The position numbers and the translations under genes were made by a program. 23,980 nt of DNA from a virus. This document shows positions 10,217-23,504 of this stretch, piece after piece. Location: positions 1 to 23,980 of IMG/VR virus record IMGVR_UViG_3300002141_000083, one strand, 5' to 3'. The notes beneath the pieces are model-generated. The model saw nothing but the letters and a program-made list of their open reading frames with translations, made no database searches and was not told where the DNA came from. Each line of letters begins with the position of its first letter. The first letter of the stretch is position 1.

Positions 10217-10969
10217 TTAAATTAATTGTTTTAGTTTAAATGAAGAAATCCCTAAACTATGACATGCCTCTTTCTTTGAACTGTATAAGATTCCGTTAAT
10301 CACAATAGGTTTGGCATTAGAATTATTTCCTCCTGTGTTTTTACCTTTGCGATTTTCTGACCATAATTTTTTAGTTTTGTTAGAAAATTGTCTATTTTTA
10401 AGTTTAGACGATCTGTCTTGTTTAAGTTGATTGGCTTTTTCTACTCCGTATATTTCCTCGTATGTTAGTCCCTTTAAACAAGTAGTGCCTCCCTTATTTT
10501 TAGATGGTATTCCCTTTTTAGCATGACTTAATTTTATTTTGTGCTCTAATGTTTTTGGACCTTTAGGAATGCCTTTCTGTGCAATTGATCGTTTAATATT
10601 TGATTCAACTGACTCCGGAATTCCTTTATGAGCGTAAGAAATTGCAGCACTTCGATGTTTTCTTGCAAATTCATATAATCTTGAACTTGGAAAATATCTA
10701 TTATGATTTTTATTTGAAGTTAGCATCCTAGACAATGCAAATGCCATTTTATGTTTAGCATTTCCTGTTAACATTTTTATCAATAATAAATGACAAATAA
10801 AGTGTTCCCTTGCAGTTAGTCTGACTAAATTATCCGAGAGATTTGATCCTCCTAATGATTTGGGAATTATATGATGATTTTCTGTATAAGTGTCGGTAGA
10901 TATAGGCCTTGATTGTGCTATGTAAATAATGTTATAATAAGTTGTGGTGTATTTGTTTAATTGGAACAT
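10217..10969 (-). CDS. HNH homing endonuclease with NUMOD motifs
   Basis: A freestanding selfish endonuclease on the strand opposite its neighbours. The N-terminus is typical of phage HNH homing enzymes: LNKYTTTYYNII, then the HNH core HHIIPKSLGG at 32-41, N47 and REHFICH (54-60). The middle holds repeated NUMOD3-like DNA-binding motifs (KGIPESVE, KGIPKGPK, KGIPSKNKGG; about 115-160). The C-terminus (IVINGILYSSKKEACHSLGI) resembles a NUMOD1 module. The 250-residue frame is intact. It fits exactly between the upstream gene's stop (10216) and the next gene's ATG (10974), and there is no Shine-Dalgarno before its ATG. It is expected to spread its own locus by cutting endonuclease-free relatives nearby. 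Confidence 0.9.
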   Translation of the reverse strand: MFQLNKYTTTYYNIIYIAQSRPISTDTYTENHHIIPKSLGGSNLSDNLVRLTAREHFICHLLLIKMLTGNAKHKMAFALSRMLTSNKNHNRYFPSSRLYEFARKHRSAAISYAHKGIPESVESNIKRSIAQKGIPKGPKTLEHKIKLSHAKKGIPSKNKGGTTCLKGLTYEEIYGVEKANQLKQDRSSKLKNRQFSNKTKKLWSENRKGKNTGGNNSNAKPIVINGILYSSKKEACHSLGISSFKLKQLI

Positions 10970-10973
10970 ATAA

Positions 10974-11675
10974 ATGGGTAATGTAGGATTGTTAGATCAG
11001 CCGAATGAGTGCGTTCATTGTCATAAAAAATTCATGTCCTCTCGTACTTTATTTAGCCACATGTGCGAAAGAAAGCGGAGAGCTCTACAAAAAGATGAAA
11101 AGCGTGTGCAGGCTGGGTACATGGCCTTTAACCGATTTTGGCAATTAGCACAAGGCGGAAAAAAGTTAAAAACATATGATGAATTTAGTGACACTTCTTA
11201 TTATAACGCCTTTGTTAAATTTGGATCTTTTATCAATAATGTTAATCCATTGTATCCAGATAAGTTCATTGACTATGTGATCAAAAGCGGAATTAAACTT
11301 GATCACTGGTGTAGAGATGAGTTGTATGAACAGTATCTATTTGAAGTATTAAAATCTGAACCAGTTGAGAGTGCAGTACAACGAAGCCTACAGACCATGA
11401 TGTCATGGGCTGATGAGAACTCTGCAGAATTTTCTCATTACTTCAATTATGTTAGCCTTAATAGAGCAGTACACGATATCAGAAATGGCTATGTCAGTCC
11501 TTGGATAATTTTAAATACAGTATCAGGACAATCTATGATCCAGAAGATGAATGACGAACAATTAGAGATGATTTCTCCGGCATTTGATATTCCGTTCTGG
11601 GTTAGAAAATTTAAAAGTGTTCCTGCAGATGTTTCGTTAGTTAAAGAAATATGCAAGGAGGTTGGAATAAAATGA
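10974..11675 (+). CDS. Conserved phage protein with N-terminal zinc-finger-like motif, 233 aa
   Basis: Unknown function. Residues 13-31 give C-x2-C-x12-H-x-C (C13, C16, H29, C31), fitting a small zinc finger, followed by a basic stretch CERKRRALQKDEKR that could touch nucleic acid. The remainder is helical with aromatic patches (YMAFNRFWQLAQ; YYNAFVKFGSFINN; DHWCRDELYEQYLFEVL; SPWIILNTVSGQ). I recognise the layout from T4-like phages of aquatic origin but know no assigned role. A gp59-type helicase loader was considered; the sequence does not support it. The ATG lies 4 nt from the divergent endonuclease ATG; the upstream TATAAATG is one base off a late box. The 3' end overlaps nothing and carries the next gene's Shine-Dalgarno. 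Confidence 0.75.
   Translation: MGNVGLLDQPNECVHCHKKFMSSRTLFSHMCERKRRALQKDEKRVQAGYMAFNRFWQLAQGGKKLKTYDEFSDTSYYNAFVKFGSFINNVNPLYPDKFIDYVIKSGIKLDHWCRDELYEQYLFEVLKSEPVESAVQRSLQTMMSWADENSAEFSHYFNYVSLNRAVHDIRNGYVSPWIILNTVSGQSMIQKMNDEQLEMISPAFDIPFWVRKFKSVPADVSLVKEICKEVGIK
11655..11662 (+). promoter_or_regulatory. Strong Shine-Dalgarno AAGGAGGT
   Basis: A full anti-16S complement, 9 nt before the ATG at 11672 and inside the 3' end of the upstream gene. It fixes the start at 11672 instead of the upstream in-frame ATG at 11651. Confidence 0.85.
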
Positions 11676-12607: not shown

Positions 12608-12809
12608 GAAAGATTCGGATGGAAACGGCCCTACTTATAAGAAGGGTGACAGAGTGTGGGTTGCTCCGTTATCAATGGAGGCAACAGTCATTGAACAAAC
12701 ACTTCATCACGACTATCCTGAAACATTTTACGGTAATGTTAAATTAAAGTACGATGACGGCAGTGAAGGAACTAGTAACAGTTGGCAACTATCAAGGGTA
12801 GTTAGATGA
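12594..12809 (+). CDS. Small SH3/Tudor-like protein, 71 aa
   Basis: A 71-residue protein with a predicted small beta-barrel: YKKGDRVWVAP, then ATVIEQTL, GNVKLKYDDGSEG and WQLSRVV. The spacing of GDRVWV and the YDDG turn recall Tudor/Agenet-type SH3 barrels. The ATG at 12594 overlaps the cupin end by 14 nt and has AGGTGA before it; the longer frame from 12531 is less likely. Its TGA overlaps the hldD start codon as ATGA. Function unknown; it interrupts the cupin-hldD pair but does not break the transcript. Confidence 0.7.
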   Translation: MPRYRKDSDGNGPTYKKGDRVWVAPLSMEATVIEQTLHHDYPETFYGNVKLKYDDGSEGTSNSWQLSRVVR

Positions 12810-13582
12810 AAATATTAATTACAGGACATAAAGGGTTTATTGGTCAAAATATGATCAAAGTCTTAAAAGACGAACATACTTTATCTTTTTATGAGCCCGG
12901 TGATGACCTTCCGAATATTAAGGGATTAGATTGGGTAATACACCTCGGCGCACTTACTTCTACAACGGAAACAAATGTAGAACTAATGATGCAACACAAC
13001 TATGATTTTAGCAGATGGATCGCTACTCAGTGCAGAGACAACGGTGTAAACTTTCAGTATTCGAGTAGTGCTAGTGTATACGGTTTAAAAAATAGTTTTA
13101 ACGAAAGCGACCCGTCCGATCCACGAAGTCCGTATGCGTGGAGCAAGTTCTTGTTTGATCGTTACATTGCCCACCTTGCAGGTAGCTGGCCCATACTGGT
13201 GCAAGGATTCCGTTATTTTAATGTTTACGGTCCTCACGAAGATCATAAAGGTGACCAAGCAAGTCCTTATCATAAATTTGAAAAGCAGGCAAAAGAAACT
13301 GGTGTGATCAAATTGTTTGAAGGCTCGGAAAATTATCTAAGAGATTTTGTTCCTGTTGAGCGAGTATGCGACATACATAAACAATTTTTAAACATTAAAG
13401 AAACAGGGATTTGGAATGTAGGGCTCGGCAGAGCGACCTCATTTGAATCGGTTGCTAGGATGATTGCAGAGAAATACGATGCAACGATTGAATATATTCC
13501 CATGCCAGACAACATGAAAAATCAATATCAAACTTATACCTGTGCAGATATTGATTTACTTAAACGGTACATTGACGCATGA
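12806..13582 (+). CDS. hldD: ADP-L-glycero-D-manno-heptose 6-epimerase (HldD)
   Basis: Short-chain dehydrogenase-type epimerase that turns ADP-D-glycero- into ADP-L-glycero-D-manno-heptose, the LPS inner-core precursor. The cofactor loop is TGHKGFIG (6-13); the catalytic triad is seen as S87 region (YSSSAS) and Y110-x3-K114 (YAWSK). HldD-specific blocks are very clear: GFRYFNVYGPHEDHKG (134-149), KLFEGSENYLRDFVPV and YIPMPDNMKNQYQTYTCAD. At 258 residues it is shorter than the bacterial enzyme (about 310): the section between the cofactor loop and the active site is trimmed and the last ~30 residues are missing. It shares ATGA overlaps with both neighbours, so the heptose genes are translationally coupled. 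Confidence 0.93.
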   Translation: MKILITGHKGFIGQNMIKVLKDEHTLSFYEPGDDLPNIKGLDWVIHLGALTSTTETNVELMMQHNYDFSRWIATQCRDNGVNFQYSSSASVYGLKNSFNESDPSDPRSPYAWSKFLFDRYIAHLAGSWPILVQGFRYFNVYGPHEDHKGDQASPYHKFEKQAKETGVIKLFEGSENYLRDFVPVERVCDIHKQFLNIKETGIWNVGLGRATSFESVARMIAEKYDATIEYIPMPDNMKNQYQTYTCADIDLLKRYIDA

Positions 13583-13971
13583 CGATAGTTGTAAACGGCA
13601 CCTTTGATATCTTGCATCGTGGACACATCGAAATGCTTGAATATGCCAAGAGTCTAGGTGATCAGTTATTAGTATGTATTGACACCGATCGTAGAGTAAC
13701 AGAATTAAAAGGCCCAACAAGACCAATTAACAATCAGCAAGATAGGGCATTTATTCTTCAAAGTCTGAAATGTGTAGACATTGTAGAGTTCTTTGATAGT
13801 ACAGAAGAGCTTATTAACATAATAGAAATGTACAGGCCAGATATTATGGTTAAAGGTAGTGACTACATAGGAAACCCTATAGTAGGAGAAAGTCTTTGCA
13901 AAGAAATAAAATTTTATGATAGAACAGAACATTCAACAACAAAAATCATTCAGCGTATTATTAATAGGTGA
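13579..13971 (+). CDS. hldC: Heptose-1-phosphate adenylyltransferase (HldC / HldE C-terminal domain)
   Basis: A cytidylyltransferase-fold enzyme of 130 residues matching the C-terminal domain of HldE, which joins ATP and D-glycero-beta-D-manno-heptose 1-phosphate to ADP-heptose. The nucleotide-binding motif GTFDILHRGH (7-16, HxGH) is intact, and the HldE blocks TELKGPTRPIN, QSLKCVDIVEFF, PDIMVKGSDY and HSTTKIIQRI follow in order. In most Gram-negative bacteria this domain is fused behind the kinase; here it is a separate protein encoded before it. The start codon overlaps the hldD stop (ATGA), and its 3' end overlaps the kinase gene by 56 nt. Confidence 0.92.
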   Translation: MTIVVNGTFDILHRGHIEMLEYAKSLGDQLLVCIDTDRRVTELKGPTRPINNQQDRAFILQSLKCVDIVEFFDSTEELINIIEMYRPDIMVKGSDYIGNPIVGESLCKEIKFYDRTEHSTTKIIQRIINR

Positions 13972-14725
13972 TAGTTGCCTAGATGTATATATGGTGGGAT
14001 CCGTTGACCGGCTAAGTCCGGAAGCACCAGTACCAGTAATAAAATTAGTACAAAACTATTCTGCTCCAGGGATGGCCAGTAATGTACACACTAACTTACA
14101 AGCATTAGGAGTCGATGCTGACTTTATTACTAACGGAGAAACGGTTACAAAAACTAGATATATTGATAAAAGGTCTGGACAGCATCTATTAAGAGTAGAC
14201 GACGAACCAAAAATTGTTCCATGGAGTGGCCGTACTCCGTTTCCCATGGAAGAATATGACGCTGTTATAATATCAGATTACAACAAAGGTTTTCTAAGTT
14301 ACGAACATATAGAGAATATTATTCGTACAGTTAAATGCCCTGTGTTCATTGATACCAAAAAACAGGACTTATCTAGATTCAGTGCTCCTCATGTGTATGT
14401 TAAGATAAACGAATTGGAATATAAGAATAGATTTTCCATTCCTCAAAACTTAATTGTCACTATTGGTGATCGAGGTGCTACAATTTATAGATTAGGCTGC
14501 GAAGAAGTGACCTATAGCACCACCCAGGTAGAAGTCGTGGATGTGTGCGGCTGTGGAGACACATTCCTGGCAGCGTTTGCATATAAATACCTCTTTACAT
14601 ATAAGATTAATGACGCTATAATATATGCAAATGTGGCGGCAGGTGTTACTGTTCAACATCGTGGAAACTATGCTCCAACTTTAGAAGAAATTGAAAATGC
14701 CCGACATAGACTTAGACTTTGCTGA
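13916..14725 (+). CDS. hldA: Heptose-7-phosphate kinase, PfkB family (HldA / HldE N-terminal domain)
   Basis: PfkB-type sugar kinase matching the N-terminal domain of HldE, which makes D-glycero-beta-D-manno-heptose 1,7-bisphosphate. HldE signatures are present: IGDSCLDVY (17-25), RLSPEAPVPVIKL (32-44), a PGMASNV glycine motif, IISDYNKG (118-125), VTIGDRG and the catalytic loop GCGDTF (212-217, D215 as base; bacterial GAGDT). The first glycine pair of the family (GGAANV) reads GMASNV. Between ALGVDADF and TKTRYID about 30 residues present in E. coli HldE are missing. The ATG at 13916 overlaps the transferase gene by 56 nt but is needed to keep the GD motif at the usual position. GmhA and GmhB are not in the window; the host may supply them. 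Confidence 0.9.
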   Translation: MIEQNIQQQKSFSVLLIGDSCLDVYMVGSVDRLSPEAPVPVIKLVQNYSAPGMASNVHTNLQALGVDADFITNGETVTKTRYIDKRSGQHLLRVDDEPKIVPWSGRTPFPMEEYDAVIISDYNKGFLSYEHIENIIRTVKCPVFIDTKKQDLSRFSAPHVYVKINELEYKNRFSIPQNLIVTIGDRGATIYRLGCEEVTYSTTQVEVVDVCGCGDTFLAAFAYKYLFTYKINDAIIYANVAAGVTVQHRGNYAPTLEEIENARHRLRLC

Positions 14726-15275
14726 TAGAACAAAAATCCTTGATGTAATCAAACATGTCCCTGCGGCAATAGAAACCAATGGAACTTTTAAAAAGCACAA
14801 TACCGGAGTATATTGTACTTCTATCCCAGTTAATCCACTGACTGGTACAGCAAGCATAGACTACAAAGAAGCTGAAGATCGCGGCTACTTCAAAATTGAT
14901 TTCTTGAATGTTAGTATGTACAGTGGTATAAAAGATGAAGCACATCTCACTAGACTAATGGAGGCTGAACCGCTATGGGATTTACTACAGGACGACAGTT
15001 TCACGAATTTATTGTTTCACATAAACGGGTATGGAGACTTGCTACGGACGCAGAAGCCGAAGAGTGTAGAAGAGGTGGCCGTGTGCCTAGCCTTGATCCG
15101 CCCAGGGAAGCGACACCTACAAGAGATGACGAAGATCGATATTATGAATCAGATATGGGAGAAACCGACGACCGGTGAGTACCATTTCAAGAAAGCCCAC
15201 GCTATAGCCTATGCAACGGCTATTGTAGTTCAGATGAACTTGATCTGCGAGGGAATTAGTTACGAATACAGCTAA
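14697..15275 (+). CDS. Miniature DnaE-like protein (bacterial polymerase III alpha core)
   Basis: A 192-residue protein whose blocks line up, in order, with the catalytic core of DNA polymerase III alpha. PDIDLDF (2-8) matches the DnaE motif with two catalytic Asp; FKIDFL (66-70 region, D68) matches KFDFLGL with the third; LLFHINGYGDLL, SVEEVAVCLALIRPGK (123-138) and YHFKKAHAIAYA (162-173) match FQLESRGMKDL, the LVALFRPG block and the FNKSHSAAYA finger motif. The PHP, thumb, OB and tau-binding parts are absent and the core itself is cut to under half its usual size. The ATG at 14697 overlaps the kinase end by 29 nt. It could be a degenerate or regulatory relic, an end-processing polymerase or a binder of host replication parts; activity is unknown. 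Confidence 0.8.
   Translation: MPDIDLDFADRTKILDVIKHVPAAIETNGTFKKHNTGVYCTSIPVNPLTGTASIDYKEAEDRGYFKIDFLNVSMYSGIKDEAHLTRLMEAEPLWDLLQDDSFTNLLFHINGYGDLLRTQKPKSVEEVAVCLALIRPGKRHLQEMTKIDIMNQIWEKPTTGEYHFKKAHAIAYATAIVVQMNLICEGISYEYS
14975..15178 (+). CDS. Possible overlapping ORF inside the DnaE-like gene, 67 aa
   Basis: A frame wholly inside the DnaE-like gene but read in a different register. Support: GGAGG at 14960-14964, ten bases before the ATG, and a local shift to GC-richer codons in the host gene over the same interval, as expected if two frames are constrained. The product opens MGFTTGRQFHEFIVSHKRV and ends very acidic and Arg-rich (TRDDEDRYYESDMGETDD). It resembles nothing I recognise. The alternative is a recombined or chance segment, so confidence is low. 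Confidence 0.25.
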   Translation: MGFTTGRQFHEFIVSHKRVWRLATDAEAEECRRGGRVPSLDPPREATPTRDDEDRYYESDMGETDDR

Positions 15276-15652
15276 CGCTTAGGGAGAACTCTAACTAGTT
15301 GTATAGATCTTCTCTTAATGCGTTTTTCTGCGATTTCACTTAGGTTAACTGTTGGGCCAAATATAAGCTCAGCATCTTTGCTATTAAATGTCTTAATAGT
15401 GTATCTAAAAAATTGCATTTCTTTTTTTAGGAATATATTAATGGGTATTTTACGGTTGCTTTCCCACCACCAAGTTTCTCCCATTTCTAAAAATAGAGTA
15501 CGCTCGTCTTCGGACCTAATAGTAGAGATATCGTAGATACTAGCTACAAAGTTATCTAAATTTATAACGATGCCTACATACTCAATATCATTACTTTTGA
15601 TACATGAAATAAATGGATAGTTTTCTTGAAAGGTGGTTGTTTTAGTTGTCAT
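15272..15652 (-). CDS. Conserved small phage protein, minus strand, 126 aa
   Basis: Unknown function. The sequence has the GETWWWESNRKIPINIFLKKEM block (57-78), with three tryptophans in a row, and TIKTFNSKDAELIFGPTVNLSE; I associate this pattern with small conserved proteins of aquatic T4-like phages. The C-terminus is basic (EKRIKRRSIQLVRVLPKR). Its stop codon shares bases CTAA with the convergent DnaE-like stop. A TATTTATA at 15691-15698 reads as TATAAATA on this strand and could be its late promoter with a leader of about 33 nt; a GAAGA sits before the ATG. Confidence 0.75.
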   Translation of the reverse strand: MTTKTTTFQENYPFISCIKSNDIEYVGIVINLDNFVASIYDISTIRSEDERTLFLEMGETWWWESNRKIPINIFLKKEMQFFRYTIKTFNSKDAELIFGPTVNLSEIAEKRIKRRSIQLVRVLPKR

Positions 15653-15657
15653 TCTTC

Positions 15658-15665
15658 AATAAATA
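15658..15665 (+). promoter_or_regulatory. Late-promoter-like box AATAAATA
   Basis: Exact NATAAATA match, 7 nt before the ATG at 15673 of a probable virion protein. No Shine-Dalgarno lies between it and the start codon, so the transcript would be leaderless or nearly so. Confidence 0.6.
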
Positions 15666-15672
15666 CTCTATA

Positions 15673-16515
15673 ATGCAAAATTTACCAATCTATTTATATC
15701 CAAACACCCTCGGGGTGATATTAGATCTGGATTCAACAGTCAAGGGAGTTAATCGGATTATGTATCAGCGCGAACTAAAAATACAGAAGGGCATAAAAAA
15801 TAAGATCCGTGTCCAAGTAAAAAACAGCGATCAAAAGCGGATTACCCTTAGTGATTCTGATGTCTATGTGTTTTCCTTATTTGATGCAACCAACCAACGG
15901 CTACTATTAGAAAAAGAATTAACTGTCTTAGATGACGGTGATACCTTTTCTCTAAGAGGACTAGCAGAATTTACCCTAACTGAAAGTGATACTATGGACT
16001 TGGATGTTGGTAACTATCAATATTCCGTCAAGTATCTGGATCCAGATGATCACACCTACTTGCCCGCATACAGCAACACCTATTACGGTGTAGCAGGGAC
16101 ATTAACTCTACTACAAGATGTTTATCCAAACCTACAGCCAAGCCAAGAAGTAGTGGCGTATAATCGAGTTTATAACGATTCGATAAGTTTATATCAACAT
16201 AAGAGCGGAAACATCTACGCTTACCCAGAATACAACAGTAATACAGCATTACATACCGCCGCAATGTATATGACCAATTTTATTGGTACAGTTTCCGTTG
16301 AAGGAACATTATATAACAGTCCTGCTACATTCGATCGATATGTTACCATTGAAACTCGAGAGTACAACGGTTTTACCGGAATTGATTATGTGAACTTTAA
16401 CGGTATATTCAGCTTTGTTCGATTCACTTTTCAGCCTGCTGTTGCGCCAAGCGAATCTCTTAATAATAATCCAGAATACTACGGTTCATTTGACAAGGTC
16501 CTATATAGATGTTAA
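15673..16515 (+). CDS. Probable virion structural protein, 280 aa
   Basis: A beta-rich protein typical of phage tail or baseplate components, but the exact part cannot be named. It opens MQNLPIYLYPNTLGV, then a strand-rich domain (RIMYQRELKIQKGIKNKIRVQVKN cut by turns; residues 30-60) reminiscent of the N-terminal domain of baseplate upper proteins. The second half is Tyr/Asn/Ser-rich (YNRVYNDSISLYQHKSGNIY; FVRFTFQPA). No membrane segment. The frame opens earlier (15646), but ATG 15673 is chosen because the late box ends 7 nt upstream and nothing resembles a ribosome-binding site before 15646. The late-type promoter supports a structural role. Confidence 0.75.
   Translation: MQNLPIYLYPNTLGVILDLDSTVKGVNRIMYQRELKIQKGIKNKIRVQVKNSDQKRITLSDSDVYVFSLFDATNQRLLLEKELTVLDDGDTFSLRGLAEFTLTESDTMDLDVGNYQYSVKYLDPDDHTYLPAYSNTYYGVAGTLTLLQDVYPNLQPSQEVVAYNRVYNDSISLYQHKSGNIYAYPEYNSNTALHTAAMYMTNFIGTVSVEGTLYNSPATFDRYVTIETREYNGFTGIDYVNFNGIFSFVRFTFQPAVAPSESLNNNPEYYGSFDKVLYRC
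15691..15698 (-). promoter_or_regulatory. Late-promoter-like box TATAAATA on the minus strand
   Basis: TATTTATA on the plus strand gives the T4 late consensus on the minus strand, pointing at the gene that starts at 15652. It lies inside the first codons of the plus-strand gene (IYLY), so codon constraint may explain it. Confidence 0.35.
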
Positions 16516-16524
16516 TATGTAAGT

Positions 16525-17526
16525 GTGAACGAAATACAGTCTACACTTCTAAGTCTTTTACCGCATAATAGAAAAAACACATCCGGTGGGTGGGTTAGTT
16601 TCAATGCTGTCTGCTGTCACCACCGAGGTGAGAAGCCGGACACAAAGAAACGAGGCGGTATAAAATCTGATAGCGACTCTTGGACTTATCACTGCTTCAA
16701 CTGCGGCTTTAAAGCAGGATGGAGTCCGGGCAAACTGTTAAGTGGCAATACTAAACTCCTGTTCAAATGGTTGGGATTAACCGATCTAGACATAGGTAAG
16801 TTAGGCCTTGTTGCACTCAAGCATCAAGAGAATATGCCCAAAGCAGAAAAGGTATTAAATCTCGATCTTAAAGAAATAGAATTGCCCGATGGTGCAATGT
16901 CTGTAATGGAGTGGATTAACACCGGGTACTTGCCCGATGTTGCAGAAGACATTGGCAAGATAGTAGAGTACATCATAAGTCGCGGAATGGACCTAGATTG
17001 GTACAACTGGATGTGGTCACCTGCTCCCGGTTATGTAGACAGGGTGTTGATTCCGTTCTATCAGGATAGAAAGATAGTCGGGTATACTGGGAGAAAGATA
17101 ACAGATGGTAAACCGAAGTATCTTACGGAAAGTCAAAGCGGGTATGTTTTCAACATAGACCGCCAAGACAGAAATAGACAGTATGTTATCGTATCTGAAG
17201 GGCAGTTTGATGCTATTGCAATCGACGGTGTTGGCATAATGACTAATGAACCAAACGATGCCCAAGTACTAAGGATAAATGCATTAGCCAGAGAAGTTAT
17301 TGTTGTACCTGATCGAGATCGGCCCGGTGCTAAGATGCTAAAGCATGCCATCAAACACAATTGGTCAGTTAGTTTACCACCTTGGGGCGACGATGTAAAA
17401 GATATAGCAGAAGCAGTCCGTAAGTATGGACGCATCTATGTATTGACCACGATCTTACACTATAGAGTCTCTGGAGAGATAAAAATAAATCTACTGAAGA
17501 AAAAATTAGAGGGCCTAAATGAATAA
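16525..17526 (+). CDS. gp61: DNA primase, gp61 family
   Basis: T4 gp61-type DnaG-like primase that lays down RNA primers on the lagging strand with helicase gp41. An N-terminal zinc-binding module is visible: CCHHRG (C30-H33 region) with YHCFNCGF (C57, C60). The catalytic TOPRIM domain has IVSEGQFDAIAI (E225) and VVPDRDRPG (D263, D265). Between them lies VDRVLIPFYQDRKIVGYTGR, the usual RNA-polymerase-like part. Length 333 matches gp61 (342). The start is a GTG at 16525; the ATG nine bases earlier is followed by a stop. The Shine-Dalgarno is weak. The 3' end overlaps gp41 by 8 nt, coupling primase and helicase synthesis. Confidence 0.93.
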   Translation: MNEIQSTLLSLLPHNRKNTSGGWVSFNAVCCHHRGEKPDTKKRGGIKSDSDSWTYHCFNCGFKAGWSPGKLLSGNTKLLFKWLGLTDLDIGKLGLVALKHQENMPKAEKVLNLDLKEIELPDGAMSVMEWINTGYLPDVAEDIGKIVEYIISRGMDLDWYNWMWSPAPGYVDRVLIPFYQDRKIVGYTGRKITDGKPKYLTESQSGYVFNIDRQDRNRQYVIVSEGQFDAIAIDGVGIMTNEPNDAQVLRINALAREVIVVPDRDRPGAKMLKHAIKHNWSVSLPPWGDDVKDIAEAVRKYGRIYVLTTILHYRVSGEIKINLLKKKLEGLNE

Positions 17527-18982
17527 ACCAAATTACGACCATGCAATGCAGAAATTATATCTTGAAATGTTTCTTGGAGATGCAGAAACTTTCATCCGGT
17601 GTCAAAATATATTTGATCCAAAAAACTTTGATCAGCGATTACAAGATTCTGCTGAATTCATCAGCAAATATGTTGACGAATATAAAGTCATGCCCGAAGT
17701 TAGCATCGTTAATGCTTCAACTAAGAGTCAATTTGAATCGGTACAACTACCAAAAGAAAATTACGATTGGTTGATGGATGAGTTTGAAAACTTTAGTCGA
17801 CACAAAGGATTAGAGCGAGCTATTATTGAAAGTAGCGATTTACTTGAAGCAGGTGATTACGGCCCAGTTGAAAAGCTGATTAAGGATGCTATTCAAATTA
17901 GTCTAAACAAAGATATGGGTACAGACTACTTTGATGACCCTCGGGCTCGATTAACTAAACTTAAAGATGGCAACGGGCAGGTTAGTACAGGATGGCCTAG
18001 CATTGATAAGAAACTCTATGGTGGATTTAACCGCGGTGAGTTGAACATTTTCTGCGCAGGATCAGGTGGCGGTAAATCATTGTTCCTTGCTAACTTGGGG
18101 TTGAACTGGGTACTGGCTGGTTTGAATGTTGTTTATCTAACTTTCGAGTTGAATGAGGGATTGGTTAGTATGCGGCTTGACAGCATGACTACTGGTATTA
18201 GTACTCGTGATATCTTTAAGAACATCGACGATGTTGAATTAAAGGTTAGAATGTTGGGTAAAAAGTCGGGAAGCCTACAAGTTAAGTACATGCCTTCGGG
18301 GAAAAATTGTAACGATTTACGAGCCTATTTGAAGGAATATCAAGTTAAAACTGGTCGGAAACCGGATGTTTTGTTAATAGATTACCTCGATTTGATGATG
18401 CCTTTAAGTGTGAAGGTATCGCCCAGCGATCTGTTCGTAAAAGACAAATATGTGTCAGAAGAAATTCGAAACCTAGCAATGGAGACGCAATGTATTACTG
18501 TAACAGCGTCACAGTTGAATCGTAGTGCTGTAGAAGAGATTGAGTTTGATCACAGCCATATTTCAGGTGGCTTGAGTAAGATCATGACGGCAGATAATGT
18601 GATTGGTATCTTTACTAGCAGGGCTATGAAAGAGCGGGGCCGCTTTCAAATTCAGTTTATGAAAACTCGGTCAAGCAGTGGCGTTGGACAAAAGGTAGAC
18701 CTAGAGTTTAACATTGATACTCTACGGATTAGTGACCTAGGGGATGAAGCAGATAGTTTTAGTCAGGGCGGCGGTAAACCACAAAGCCCTGCGGTCGGAA
18801 TTTATAGCAATCTTAAGAGGACTAGCTCTGTAAGTACTACTACTGATCCGGACACTGGGGAAATTATAGAAGTGGATCCTAAGCAAGGTGCAAACCTTAA
18901 GCTGAATAAATCTACTACTCCGGCTCCGCTAATTAGGCAATGGGTTAATAATATGCCTAACCTAAATCCTGAGAAAGATTAA
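17519..18982 (+). CDS. gp41: Replicative DNA helicase, gp41 (DnaB family)
   Basis: The hexameric 5'-3' fork helicase of T4-like phages. Residues 1-135 form the N-terminal interaction domain. The RecA-like motor has Walker A GSGGGKS (181-187), a glutamate after strand 2 (YLTFELNEG), Walker B VLLIDYLDLM (284-293), and TASQLNRSA (329-337), the DnaB-family motif that senses ATP state. A conserved arginine-rich end lies at FQIQFMKTRSSSGVG. Length 487 fits gp41 (475). An AGAGG lies before the ATG at 17519. The tail after residue 430 is Ser/Thr/Pro-rich and disordered. Its TAA shares TTAA with the convergent stop of the minus-strand YqgE-like gene. Confidence 0.95.
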   Translation: MNKPNYDHAMQKLYLEMFLGDAETFIRCQNIFDPKNFDQRLQDSAEFISKYVDEYKVMPEVSIVNASTKSQFESVQLPKENYDWLMDEFENFSRHKGLERAIIESSDLLEAGDYGPVEKLIKDAIQISLNKDMGTDYFDDPRARLTKLKDGNGQVSTGWPSIDKKLYGGFNRGELNIFCAGSGGGKSLFLANLGLNWVLAGLNVVYLTFELNEGLVSMRLDSMTTGISTRDIFKNIDDVELKVRMLGKKSGSLQVKYMPSGKNCNDLRAYLKEYQVKTGRKPDVLLIDYLDLMMPLSVKVSPSDLFVKDKYVSEEIRNLAMETQCITVTASQLNRSAVEEIEFDHSHISGGLSKIMTADNVIGIFTSRAMKERGRFQIQFMKTRSSSGVGQKVDLEFNIDTLRISDLGDEADSFSQGGGKPQSPAVGIYSNLKRTSSVSTTTDPDTGEIIEVDPKQGANLKLNKSTTPAPLIRQWVNNMPNLNPEKD

Positions 18983-20287: not shown

Positions 20288-21022
20288 ATGAATATTACAT
20301 CTCAACAACAATTTGATGAATTAACAAAGTTAAAAAAAACTTATCGATTTAAAAGAACATTTGGCTTTACATTAACAAGTGTACGATATCACAGTCTAGT
20401 TCATAAGCCAACTAGTAGACTATTGTTCATTAGTTATTGGGAAGCTGTTCCTAATATACTTGCAGAAAGTACCTTAAATACAATCCAATCATTTTGGGTC
20501 AACTCTGTTGCTGCCCCAGTTATTACTAAAGATTTTGATTCTAGTAGACCATGGATGTATCAGTGGGATAACTCTCAAAAGAAATATCTAAAATCCGATC
20601 CTTCATTAACCTTTGATGAAAAATACTTCTATATACTAATAGCAGAAAAGGCAGCGGTACTAGATATCATATTGCATAAACTACAACATTATCGCAGAAT
20701 GTTCAGTCATGATTATTTGTTTCAACAGGACATATATCGATTAAAAGCAAACGAGTCTTTGGAGATAATAAAAAATAAAATTACAGACATGAACGGCGAC
20801 TTTCCTTTTACAGAAGCCTATGCTGAATTTGAGGGCATTGACCTACAGACTGCCGCACAAAGTATAAACATACAGGATAAATTTTTTCAAACTCGTATGT
20901 TGAATACAGAAATGCTTAGATTAAAATATCTTAGAAAAATAAAAGATTGTTCTGATGTACAGCAACTACACCCAATTTTAAATGATTTTTATAAAGAAGG
21001 AGAAGTATATGGCAGACTCTAA
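20288..21022 (+). CDS. Phage protein of unknown function, 244 aa
   Basis: Not recognised. A soluble, mostly helical protein rich in aromatic and basic residues. Notable stretches: TYRFKRTFGFTLTSVRYHS (18-36), RLLFISYWEAVPN, RPWMYQWDN, and a long helical part FDEKYFYILIAEKAAVLDIIL. A DMNGDFPFTEAYAEFEGID loop lies around 160-180. There are no cysteine clusters, signal peptide or membrane segments. The late box 5 nt upstream suggests late expression. Its 3' end contains the AAGGAGAA for the next gene, and the two overlap by 14 nt, so it is probably linked in function to the PP-loop gene. Confidence 0.7.
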   Translation: MNITSQQQFDELTKLKKTYRFKRTFGFTLTSVRYHSLVHKPTSRLLFISYWEAVPNILAESTLNTIQSFWVNSVAAPVITKDFDSSRPWMYQWDNSQKKYLKSDPSLTFDEKYFYILIAEKAAVLDIILHKLQHYRRMFSHDYLFQQDIYRLKANESLEIIKNKITDMNGDFPFTEAYAEFEGIDLQTAAQSINIQDKFFQTRMLNTEMLRLKYLRKIKDCSDVQQLHPILNDFYKEGEVYGRL

Positions 21023-22139
21023 TCTAATATTTTATAATTCAGTTGATCTATTTCATCCGGAAAAAAGTAATTTATATGCAGAATTTGTAAATGAAAAACC
21101 GGGGTTTGATTTATTTCAATATATGTTTCGTATCTTTGCTGCCAACCTTTCTCTAGTAGATCGGACTAAAACTTTAACAACTCCACTAAACATGCAGTTG
21201 TTAGATTGTTGCAAATTGCCCAACTACGATCCAGATTTTAGTTTAGACTTTACTGATATATGTCAGGCACGGGCAAGATGGTTTTTAGACTATGCTCAAA
21301 ACACAAATAGAAAAATAGTAGTAATGTATAGTGGAGGTATTGATAGCACTTTAATATTATCAAGTTTCATTATGGTCGGCACCGTTGAAGAACTAAAAAA
21401 CAACATAGTCGTATTACTGACTAATACTAGTATTGACGAAAATCCTACTTTTTATAGAAATCATGTTTTAAAAAAGTTTACTTTAGAATCAGGATATGCA
21501 TTTCAAAATTTTTTAGGAAACCCAAAATACATTGTGGTTACCGGAGAGGGTAATGATCAGTTATTTGGATCAGTAGTTATGCATCGTTTTGTTCTTAAGA
21601 AAGGTCCAGATATCTTAACGGCAACTCCTACCTCAAATTTAATATCAGAACTTATAAATGAATCAGTTTACGATCGAGAAAAGAGTGAAAAAATAACCGA
21701 ATTGTTTAATCGTGTTGTTAACAGTGCTCCCATGAAAATAGAAACAGTGAACCAATATTTTTGGTGGCTAAACTTTACATTAAAATGGCAAAGTGTTTAT
21801 ATGCGTATAGTTGCCTACACTTCTCCTAAGTTTAGATCAACTGTTAAAATTGAAGACAATTATTTTACATTTTTTCATGCTCCAGATTTTCAAAAATGGG
21901 TGATGCGCCATCCTGACCAGTTAATTAGAGAAACTTGGGCTAGTTATAAATGGAAATGTAAAGAAGTGATATTCGAAGTTAATCCGGATGAAAACTATCG
22001 AGATAATAAAACTAAATTTGGTAGTTTAATACGAGTGGTATCAGGAAAACACATTGCCAAATGTATTGATAGTAACGGAGTATTTTACGATACTAACTAT
22101 CCAACAGATTGTTGGAATACAGAAAACGATTTTATTTAA
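21009..22139 (+). CDS. PP-loop ATP pyrophosphatase, asparagine-synthetase-like
   Basis: A 376-residue N-type ATP pyrophosphatase. The PP-loop VVMYSGGIDST (104-114) is clear, and TGEGNDQLFGS (178-188) matches the T-GEG-DE-FGGY motif of the asparagine synthetase family, with N and Q in place of G and E. There is no N-terminal Ntn glutaminase domain, so ammonia or another nucleophile would have to come from elsewhere. Enzymes of this group adenylate a carboxylate or amide to form amide bonds, or modify bases. AAGGAGAA at 20997-21004 sets the ATG at 21009; the longer frame is excluded. It ends 9 nt before a symporter with a linked Shine-Dalgarno, so it may act on the transported substrate; this is inference. 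Confidence 0.8.
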   Translation: MADSNLIFYNSVDLFHPEKSNLYAEFVNEKPGFDLFQYMFRIFAANLSLVDRTKTLTTPLNMQLLDCCKLPNYDPDFSLDFTDICQARARWFLDYAQNTNRKIVVMYSGGIDSTLILSSFIMVGTVEELKNNIVVLLTNTSIDENPTFYRNHVLKKFTLESGYAFQNFLGNPKYIVVTGEGNDQLFGSVVMHRFVLKKGPDILTATPTSNLISELINESVYDREKSEKITELFNRVVNSAPMKIETVNQYFWWLNFTLKWQSVYMRIVAYTSPKFRSTVKIEDNYFTFFHAPDFQKWVMRHPDQLIRETWASYKWKCKEVIFEVNPDENYRDNKTKFGSLIRVVSGKHIAKCIDSNGVFYDTNYPTDCWNTENDFI

Positions 22140-22148
22140 GGAAAAAGT

Positions 22149-23504
22149 ATGGAAATTATTATCACATCATCGTTATTTTTATTAATGATATTTGCAGGTC
22201 TTGTGTTTGCTGGCACCGGATGGAGCTCGAGCATTAACAATTTTTTATTTGCAAATAGAAATTTAGAAAAGGTCTCTAGTAGTTTAGCAATTACCAGTCA
22301 TTGGTTTTGGGCTATTGCTATATTTGTAGGCCCGGCAGTTGCATACAACTGGGGCTGGCAGGGATTATTATGGTTTGCTATACCTAACGGTATCAGTTGT
22401 TGGATTGTAGGTTACTTAGCACACCGTGTGCGAGACAAATATCCAGACGGATATAGTTTGACTGAATATATTAAAGATAACTTTTCATCTCGTGTTAGTC
22501 GACTTTTTCAACTACAATTTGTATTAATTAGCTTGGCCGCACTACTATTAGGCTTCACTGCCATTAATAAACTGTGGAGCTTTACGAACCTTGCAGGCTA
22601 TATTGAACCTATATATGCCAGTTTAGCTGTTGGGTTAATTACTCTTGGGTTCACACTGCGTGGCGGAATTCGAACATCGGTCTTTACGGGTGCAATACAA
22701 ACAATACTATGGATAGGACTGTTAGCAGTTACATCTTTATTACTGGTTAACTTAGATTGGTCATGGTTTTCTTCCGGAAAAAACAATTTAGATTCAGTTG
22801 TTAATTTAGATTTTATGTCTAAATTTTCTGTAGCATTTTTGATATCTATTTTAGTCGGAGCAAGTTCACATGGCATGATGTGGCAAAAAGCATTTTCAAT
22901 GCCCAAAGAAAACATTAAACCTACATTCTATACCGCTGGTGTTATATTTTCGTTGATTGTCGTTGCGCTAGGAAGTTTGGGGCTTTATGCTCAAGCACAG
23001 GGATTAGAAGTTAAAGTTGCTGACACTGCACAAATGGTATCAATGTTAGCCATCGGTGGACCGTTGCTATTAACTGCGTTTGCTGTTATTTTAATCGGTC
23101 AAACATCTACAGTAATGGATTCAAGTTTAAATTATATTTCTAGTTTAATTACTCGTGAATGGTTACATAAAGATAGCGTTAACACTAGCCGTGCAATTAT
23201 GGTACTATTTGTATTATTAGCCTGGTTGATATCTTGGGCAAAATTAGAAATATGGACTATCTTAATGCTAATGAGTGCTGTCCGTATTGTAATGTTTGTG
23301 CCACTAGTGTTGGAAATTATGAAGAAGAAATTTAACGAGAGTTGGGTATTTTATTCATCAATTATTAGCATTGCTCTAGCAGTATATCTTGCTTGGCAAG
23401 CCCGAGAGTTTAAAATGCCAATTTATGATATGTATTCTGCACTAGTAGCATTGGGGATTCCGGTAGGCGTATATCTTGTTACAAAGCTAAATAAGAGTAG
23501 CTAA
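22149..23504 (+). CDS. Sodium:solute symporter family membrane protein
   Basis: A 451-residue inner-membrane protein with about 13 predicted membrane segments (first 1-22; later ones include LQFVLISLAALLLGF, AIQTILWIGLLAVTSLLL and IWTILMLMSAVRIVMF). The SSS-family signature TLRGGIRTSVFTGAIQ (about 168-183) matches R-GG-RAV-WTD-IQ, and GQTSTVMDSSLNYISS resembles the transmembrane segment with the sodium-site Ser/Thr. The length is near the family norm (450-550), so it looks complete. Substrates of this family include sugars, amino acids, organic acids, urea and vitamins; none can be chosen from sequence. AAGGAAAA (22138-22145) precedes the ATG. A phage-encoded copy is unusual. Confidence 0.88.
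   Translation: MEIIITSSLFLLMIFAGLVFAGTGWSSSINNFLFANRNLEKVSSSLAITSHWFWAIAIFVGPAVAYNWGWQGLLWFAIPNGISCWIVGYLAHRVRDKYPDGYSLTEYIKDNFSSRVSRLFQLQFVLISLAALLLGFTAINKLWSFTNLAGYIEPIYASLAVGLITLGFTLRGGIRTSVFTGAIQTILWIGLLAVTSLLLVNLDWSWFSSGKNNLDSVVNLDFMSKFSVAFLISILVGASSHGMMWQKAFSMPKENIKPTFYTAGVIFSLIVVALGSLGLYAQAQGLEVKVADTAQMVSMLAIGGPLLLTAFAVILIGQTSTVMDSSLNYISSLITREWLHKDSVNTSRAIMVLFVLLAWLISWAKLEIWTILMLMSAVRIVMFVPLVLEIMKKKFNESWVFYSSIISIALAVYLAWQAREFKMPIYDMYSALVALGIPVGVYLVTKLNKSS

Follow-up and report, generated by a model that had tools for sequence, protein, structure and literature searches.

A probable C-terminal half of a minimal DNA polymerase III alpha split over two genes, in a viral genome fragment

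The 23,980-nucleotide stretch of viral DNA analysed here (the window; positions 1 to 23,980 of IMG/VR record IMGVR_UViG_3300002141_000083) contains an open reading frame (ORF) of 192 codons, with its ATG at 14697 and its stop codon ending at 15275, whose product is a relative of DnaE, the alpha subunit of bacterial DNA polymerase III (Pol III alpha). Sequence comparison and structural models together make it probable that this ORF, which we call the C half, encodes the catalytic C-terminal chain of a minimal family C DNA polymerase that is split over two genes. The other chain would come from a second small gene, the N half, which we find in relatives of this virus and which carries the part of the palm that the C half lacks. 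An earlier note on this DNA, made from its letters alone, had taken the ORF for a complete miniature of Pol III alpha.

A DnaE-like chain and its conservation

The C half carries MPDIDLDF (residues 1-8), FKIDFL (65-70, with the third Asp at D68), IRPG (134-137) and YHFKKAHAIAYA (162-173), in that order. The earlier note had recognised a DnaE relative with its motifs in sequence, and this is upheld by a match to PHROG 11778 (E 5.9e-63), by alignment of the C-half profile with a four-sequence DnaE profile (hhalign E 2.2e-8, which is not a database E-value) and by the structural alignment of 182 of the 192 residues. It was also right about the third Asp, in a strand that it called KFDFL-like and whose actual letters are KIDFL. 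The local hhalign alignment puts residues 1-30 in the wrong place, and the equivalence of the DxD motif is drawn instead from the common MPDxDxDF motif and from the structural rows for 3e0d, 2hpi and 4iqj, which start at 461; we take the Thermus catalytic residues to be D463 and D465. Searched alone, the C half matches the Pfam finger domain weakly (E 0.0085, under the family cut-off) and NCBIfam TIGR00594 at E 0.0003, far under the family cut-off, and its best phmmer match in the PDB has an E-value of 0.5.

Relatives of the C half were found by tblastn in 63 phage records (E<=0.01), with query coverage of at least 80% in 61 of them. Among the matches listed, 39 of 40 records are 284-490 kb in size, and carriers include Atu_ph07, Phosso, PA5oct, GAP32 and 121Q. 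Given these records and the PHROG match, the C half belongs to a real family and is not a chance resemblance. RefSeq labels it 'DNA polymerase' in GAP32 and Atu_ph07 and 'DnaE-like DNA polymerase III alpha' in Phosso; the labels of other relatives among the matches listed are mostly hypothetical or membrane protein. A scan of genome contigs for cellular relatives gave eight loci, all on contigs of metagenome-assembled genomes, which we read as binned phage contigs.

Structure prediction had been set beforehand as a test for a palm and finger fold, and the arrangement found is that of DnaE. The AlphaFold2 model of the C half, made from the window sequence with a 54-row alignment, has a predicted local distance difference test score (pLDDT) of 87.2 and aligns over nearly its full length with residues 400-784 of E. 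coli DnaE (4jom, Z 8.5, 179 residues; 2hnh, Z 8.7, 182 of 192 residues), with a root-mean-square deviation (rmsd) of 4.3 or less (4.2-4.3 over the two chains, 4.2 for 2hnh). A Z near 8 is by itself a middling score; here the first 13 rows of the list are all DNA polymerases, family C by their titles, and the best unrelated chain has a Z of 3.4. The structural alignment to E. coli DnaE begins at 400 or 401, not 399. As modelled, the C half has the DnaE palm and finger fold. Confidence is lowest for residues 1-10 (pLDDT 66), which are predicted to pack on the N half, and for the final two residues (53).

Conservation singles out the putative active site. The 104 C-half loci collected reduce to 77 unique rows and to 65 representatives below 90% identity, all of which have D3, D5, D7, H34, G37, K66, D68, R135, P136, K138, H168 and Y172; none of the remaining columns with an Asp or Glu majority is invariant. 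One part of these loci was collected through six peptide patterns, of which MPDIDLDF and EYHFKKAH cover D3-D7 and H168, so these residues are partly favoured; no pattern covers H34, K66, D68, R135, K138 or Y172. Among the 23 genomes that carry both halves, a set in which a C-half pattern was the entry route for a single genome (G004), G37 is present in 22 and each of the other eleven residues, D3, D5, D7, H34, K66, D68, R135, P136, K138, H168 and Y172, in 23. In the fingers, the motifs RPxK and FKKxHxxxY show little or no variation.

The C half is under purifying selection. Compared with its nearest relative, L020, the window sequence shows a nonsynonymous rate (dN) of 0.10 and a synonymous rate (dS) of 0.75, giving a dN/dS of about 0.14, and dN/dS is 0.04-0.12 in the 15 listed of 25 close pairs. 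The C half is far smaller than DnaE and domains have been lost, as one might expect if a host dnaE had been captured and were now decaying. Such decay is contradicted by the selection acting on the gene, with dN/dS of about 0.14 to the nearest relative, by the invariant active site and by retention of the C half in phages of several proteobacterial host genera, and we consider it extremely improbable. The earlier note had likewise held the retained acids to argue against decay and had asked for them to be checked in homologues, where they show no variation (D3, D5 and D68 in 65/65).

The partner gene and the break in the palm

The palm motif GPGRGS of DnaE is absent from the C-half chain; in relatives, GxGRGS is on a partner protein. 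Searching the whole records of Phosso, GAP32 and Atu_ph07 with PF07733 gave a second small gene in each, belonging to PHROG 11127 and encoding 172-177 residues with GVGRGS or GLGRGS. This N half matches PF07733 positions about 18-96, the palm segment ahead of the PDIDLDF motif. From 86 N-half loci we obtained 66 unique rows and 62 representatives, through search patterns that do not cover GRGS, and all 62 have every fixed position of GxGRGS (the glycines, R and S).

Alignment of the N-half profile with E. coli DnaE extends through N393 (hhalign E 6.9e-12, against one profile and not a database), and the MPDFDVDF motif of DnaE, the equivalent of the C-half start, begins at M399; the gene break therefore falls in the DnaE loop between FLNPERVS and MPDFD. 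The N half ends in this palm loop, and the C half starts with MPDID in the window and within about 20 residues of MPDID in annotated relatives. The AlphaFold2 model of the N half, made from the Atu_ph07 sequence with a 55-row alignment, has a pLDDT of 92.1 and aligns with E. coli DnaE 278-393 (4jom) with Z 11.4 and rmsd 2.4 over 97 residues. For both halves the top structural match is Pol III alpha (Z 12.6 for the N half, 8.7 for the C half), and since one model aligns with DnaE 278-393 and the other with 400-784, the halves would be adjoining, non-overlapping parts of one enzyme. N-half residues 1-73 (L102:6001-6219) are confidently modelled and unaligned in all 15 polymerase rows.

Some further candidates around the break were rejected. 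Splitting by an intein finds no room at the break in either half, although no search with an intein profile was made. In GAP32, PF07733 has another, weak match (56579-56737, E 0.008), which contains two stops in 53 codons and is put down to chance. A thumb supplied by a third gene near the N half gains no support from the conserved gene downstream of it (PHROG 14844, 80/83 loci), whose product is short, charged and without a useful family match.

The two halves occur together in most of the genomes that we tested. The 27 records comprise 12 named phages (141-490 kb, from the 63 tblastn records) and 15 contigs, of which four came from the C-half search (80 loci, those >140 kb used) and 11 from the N-half search (80 loci, those >190 kb used, with Atu_ph07's own record excluded). 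The N half is in 24 of the 27, the C half in 26 and both in 23, including all 12 named phages; the N half thus accompanies the C half in 23 of 26 records, and of the 11 contigs from the N-half search, 10 also have the C half. N-half open frames in the 24 records are 169-213 codons long and so represent small separate genes. In the named phages the halves lie between about 11 kb (Slicko01) and about 224 kb (Phosso) apart. The C-half profile matches none of 14 bacterial and archaeal control genomes. The earlier note had remarked that T4-like phages normally use a family B polymerase, and such a polymerase is indeed present in 24 of the 27 records, among them all 23 with both halves. The Alishewanella phage Slicko01 (L184; 141 kb, recorded as circular) has both halves, with family B matches in two separate frames. 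The usual limit for a jumbo phage is 200 kb, and with Slicko01 at 141 kb the split system is not restricted to phages above 200 kb.

The partner gene changes how the ORF itself must be read. A self-sufficient polymerase of 192 residues would be in keeping with the three acids and the finger motifs, and with the 182 modelled residues that align to DnaE. However, the chain lacks the GRGS palm unit, the gene for which accompanies it in 23/26 records, and its model loses confidence at residues 1-10 (pLDDT 66), the very place where the other half would pack. Since a separate gene encodes the GRGS portion of the palm, the reading as a whole miniature is dropped from first place, and we judge it very improbable.

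What the two chains may do, and what they lack

By sequence and models, the C chain carries the three metal-binding aspartates together with the palm's second part and a finger of reduced length, and in relatives the N chain (PHROG 11127) carries the palm's first part with GRGS. In the reading that we prefer, the two chains would associate after translation, without an intein, rebuilding one nucleotidyltransferase palm in which GRGS of the N chain grips the triphosphate of the incoming deoxynucleoside triphosphate, while the C chain holds the two metals and the template end. The chains would be catalytic together, and their product would be template-directed DNA. With no thumb or PHP domain and probably no clamp-binding part, the split enzyme would probably be poorly processive alone. 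Its job beside a family B replicase may be a limited one, such as the extension or transfer of primers, gap filling on the lagging strand, or repair, and an auxiliary role in replication or repair is the most likely one for a two-chain polymerase.

Among the parts that the earlier note had listed as missing (PHP, thumb, OB and clamp-binding), the absence of thumb and PHP is borne out. The stretch from DxDxD to KKHNTG is about 25 residues in the C half against about 100 in E. coli DnaE, where we take the thumb to span 433-510, so the C half is without a thumb; its finger is also shorter than that of DnaE (hhalign). Pfam gives no PHP or helix-hairpin-helix match in the C-half ORF itself. QMNLI (residues 179-183) was considered as a clamp-binding motif and rejected, as it sits in a helix homologous to DnaE YQTLWLK.

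Several observations weigh against a two-chain polymerase. At E<=0.01, PHP (PF02811) has no match in any of the 27 records and the helix-hairpin-helix domain HHH_6 (PF14579) has none either, where 14/14 and 11/14 control genomes match, respectively; with the thumb gone as well, the grip on primer and template is unexplained. A PF07733 search of the 24-kb window found no N half there. Three contigs of 142-191 kb have a C half with neither an N half nor a family B polymerase, and one contig of 193 kb has an N half and no C half; these four may be fragments. The N-half profile also matches 8/14 control genomes, as a piece of DnaE would. Pairwise distances of N and C halves do correlate, in favour of the reading (Mantel r 0.69, n=23, 0/5000 permutations), but any co-inherited genes would do so, the correlation stands without a control gene, and the N halves of Slicko01 and XacN1 in this set are only part-length. 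The epsilon-like exonuclease domain PF00929 is in just 12/27 records (10/12 named phages and 2/15 contigs), and a dedicated epsilon proofreader as an obligate partner was rejected on this count. Finally, the literature searched (open-licence papers) yielded no biochemical study of a split minimal Pol III.

A more specific proposal is that the thumbless two-chain palm is an active family C polymerase that passes primers from the primase to the family B replicase, relying on other phage proteins to hold the DNA; we put this forward tentatively, as a possibility that is rather less likely to be right than wrong. The two chains could instead form an active nucleotidyltransferase that copies no template, for instance one that extends DNA or RNA ends by adding nucleotides. 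The Pol-beta-like fold is found in many non-replicative transferases, the palm chemistry of that type is kept here, the thumb is missing, neither PHP nor HHH_6 matches in the 27 records, and relatives already have a family B polymerase. Yet the finger motifs, RPxK and FKKxHxxxY, are family C-like and invariant or nearly so, and the gene neighbourhoods of both halves are replication modules, which makes a transferase unlikely.

The earlier note had also raised the idea of a decoy of the host replisome. As a catalytically dead scaffold or decoy, the C half would bind host or phage replisome parts, a role for which its small size, its DnaE-like surface and the primase and helicase encoded nearby might suit it. 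This idea gains no support, since active-site residues are kept in both halves: the metal ligands, K66 and the GRGS of the partner are invariant in distant phages. In addition, what we take to be the DnaE parts that contact epsilon, beta and tau are among those missing. We consider a dead scaffold or decoy quite improbable, and continue to favour a two-chain polymerase.

Genomic context and known systems

Conserved features of the C half and its neighbours are collected in Table 1. Neighbourhood counts come from 92 loci (12 in named phages and 80 others), from which similar sequences were not removed; denominators are the loci with room. On the N-half side, a gp44-like clamp loader is encoded within 6 kb in 48 of the 52 loci with full flanks (83 loci in total).

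Table 1. Positions in the window of the C half, its putative catalytic and finger motifs, and conserved neighbouring genes; residue counts are for the 65 representatives and the 23 genomes with both halves
Feature	Position	Strand	Basis
Upstream conserved neighbour, PHROG 11058; weak C2H2 zinc-finger match (E 0.0072, under cut-off)	10974..11675	+	77/79 loci
C half, the putative C-terminal part of a split minimal Pol III alpha (192 aa; PHROG 11778)	14697..15275	+	family match, alignment, model
Predicted catalytic DxD, codons D3-I4-D5 (E. coli DnaE D401/D403)	14703..14711	+	D3, D5 in 65/65 and 23/23
Codon H34 of KKHNTG motif (histidine of DnaE GKHAGG)	14796..14798	+	65/65 and 23/23
Codons K66-I67-D68; K66 = DnaE K553, D68 = predicted third catalytic acid (D555)	14892..14900	+	K66, D68 in 65/65 and 23/23
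Finger RPG block, codons R135-P136-G137-K138 (E. coli RPGPL from 639)	15099..15110	+	R135, P136, K138 in 65/65 and 23/23
Finger motif HFKKAHAIAY, codons H163-Y172 (E. coli FNKSHSAAYA from 756)	15183..15212	+	H168, Y172 in 65/65 and 23/23
Convergent neighbour, PHROG 11637, function unknown; 4-base overlap with C half	15272..15652	-	88/90 loci
Conserved neighbour, virion structural protein family match (PHROG 14467)	15646..16515	+	79/83 loci
DNA primase (PHROG 47)	16525..17526	+	70/74 loci
DnaB-like replicative helicase (PF03796)	17519..18982	+	62/66 loci

Several other genes of the window are less widely shared. Upstream of the C half, 12806-14725 encodes a sugar-nucleotide epimerase, a small nucleotidyltransferase and a PfkB/HldE-like kinase, a heptose-type cassette with relatives in 5/86, 18/88 and 12/92 loci with room, respectively; the kinase ORF overlaps the C-half start by 29 bases. 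What looks like an HNH homing endonuclease (10217-10969, minus strand) is present in 1/68 loci with room. The ORF at 20982-22139 has, by eye, an SGGIDS motif as in ATP-pyrophosphatases, and a weak QueC-like PHROG match (E 0.0039). The hydrophobic 451-residue protein of 22149-23504, transporter-like by eye, belongs to PHROG 20720 (function unknown), has no Pfam match at E 0.1 and has relatives in 0/34 loci with room.

If the two halves rebuild an active enzyme, they define a minimal core of the bacterial replicase family, and to our knowledge this two-chain core would be the smallest of any family C polymerase. Activity would mean that a family C palm can function in trans and without a built-in thumb, and one would then ask what use a second polymerase is to phages that already have a family B replicase. 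At about 370 residues in two genes the system is small, and named laboratory phages, among them the E. coli phage 121Q (genes 16 and 56), carry both halves.

Like E. coli DnaE (b0184), the two halves between them have the equivalents of D401, D403, D555 and K553, the GRGS, RPG and FNKSH motifs and the arrangement of palm and fingers. Unlike it, they are two chains, with the stretch from D405 to KH cut from about 100 residues to about 25, with shortened fingers and with PHP and helix-hairpin-helix parts not found in the 27 relatives' records. Cyanobacterial DnaE is encoded by two genes whose halves are joined by a split intein. It too is a family C polymerase from two genes, but its break is elsewhere, and the phage halves leave no room for an intein at theirs. 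The DnaE proteins of Streptomyces phage Izzy, Pseudomonas phage nickie and Bacillus phage PJN02 are phage-borne and of the same catalytic family, but are single chains of 1120-1159 residues and not split over two genes.

Several published reports, cited here from excerpts, touch on this system. Attai et al. 2018 (PMC6102473) named gp316 of Atu_ph07, which is the N half, as Pol III alpha, and Buttimer et al. 2017 (PMC5259590) noted a truncated CBB_328. In a marine survey (PMC9123017), PF07733 is reported for 51.9% of one jumbo phage cluster, which may or may not be the N half. A Pseudomonas phage paper (PMC6892783) describes MIJ3, a relative of PA5oct, with a split, intein-bearing polymerase B. 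The closest precedent is in group 2.2 jumbo phages, for which Iyer et al. 2021 (PMC7824862) described a split minimal Pol III alpha, so the enzyme is not a new one, as the earlier note had wondered. Set against the excerpts of that paper, the ORF of the window is the C-terminal unit and nothing essential differs. To it we add a new member, the position of the break relative to E. coli DnaE, counts of conservation, co-occurrence and gene neighbourhood, structural models and the 141-kb carrier Slicko01, part of which may already stand in the full text of PMC7824862.
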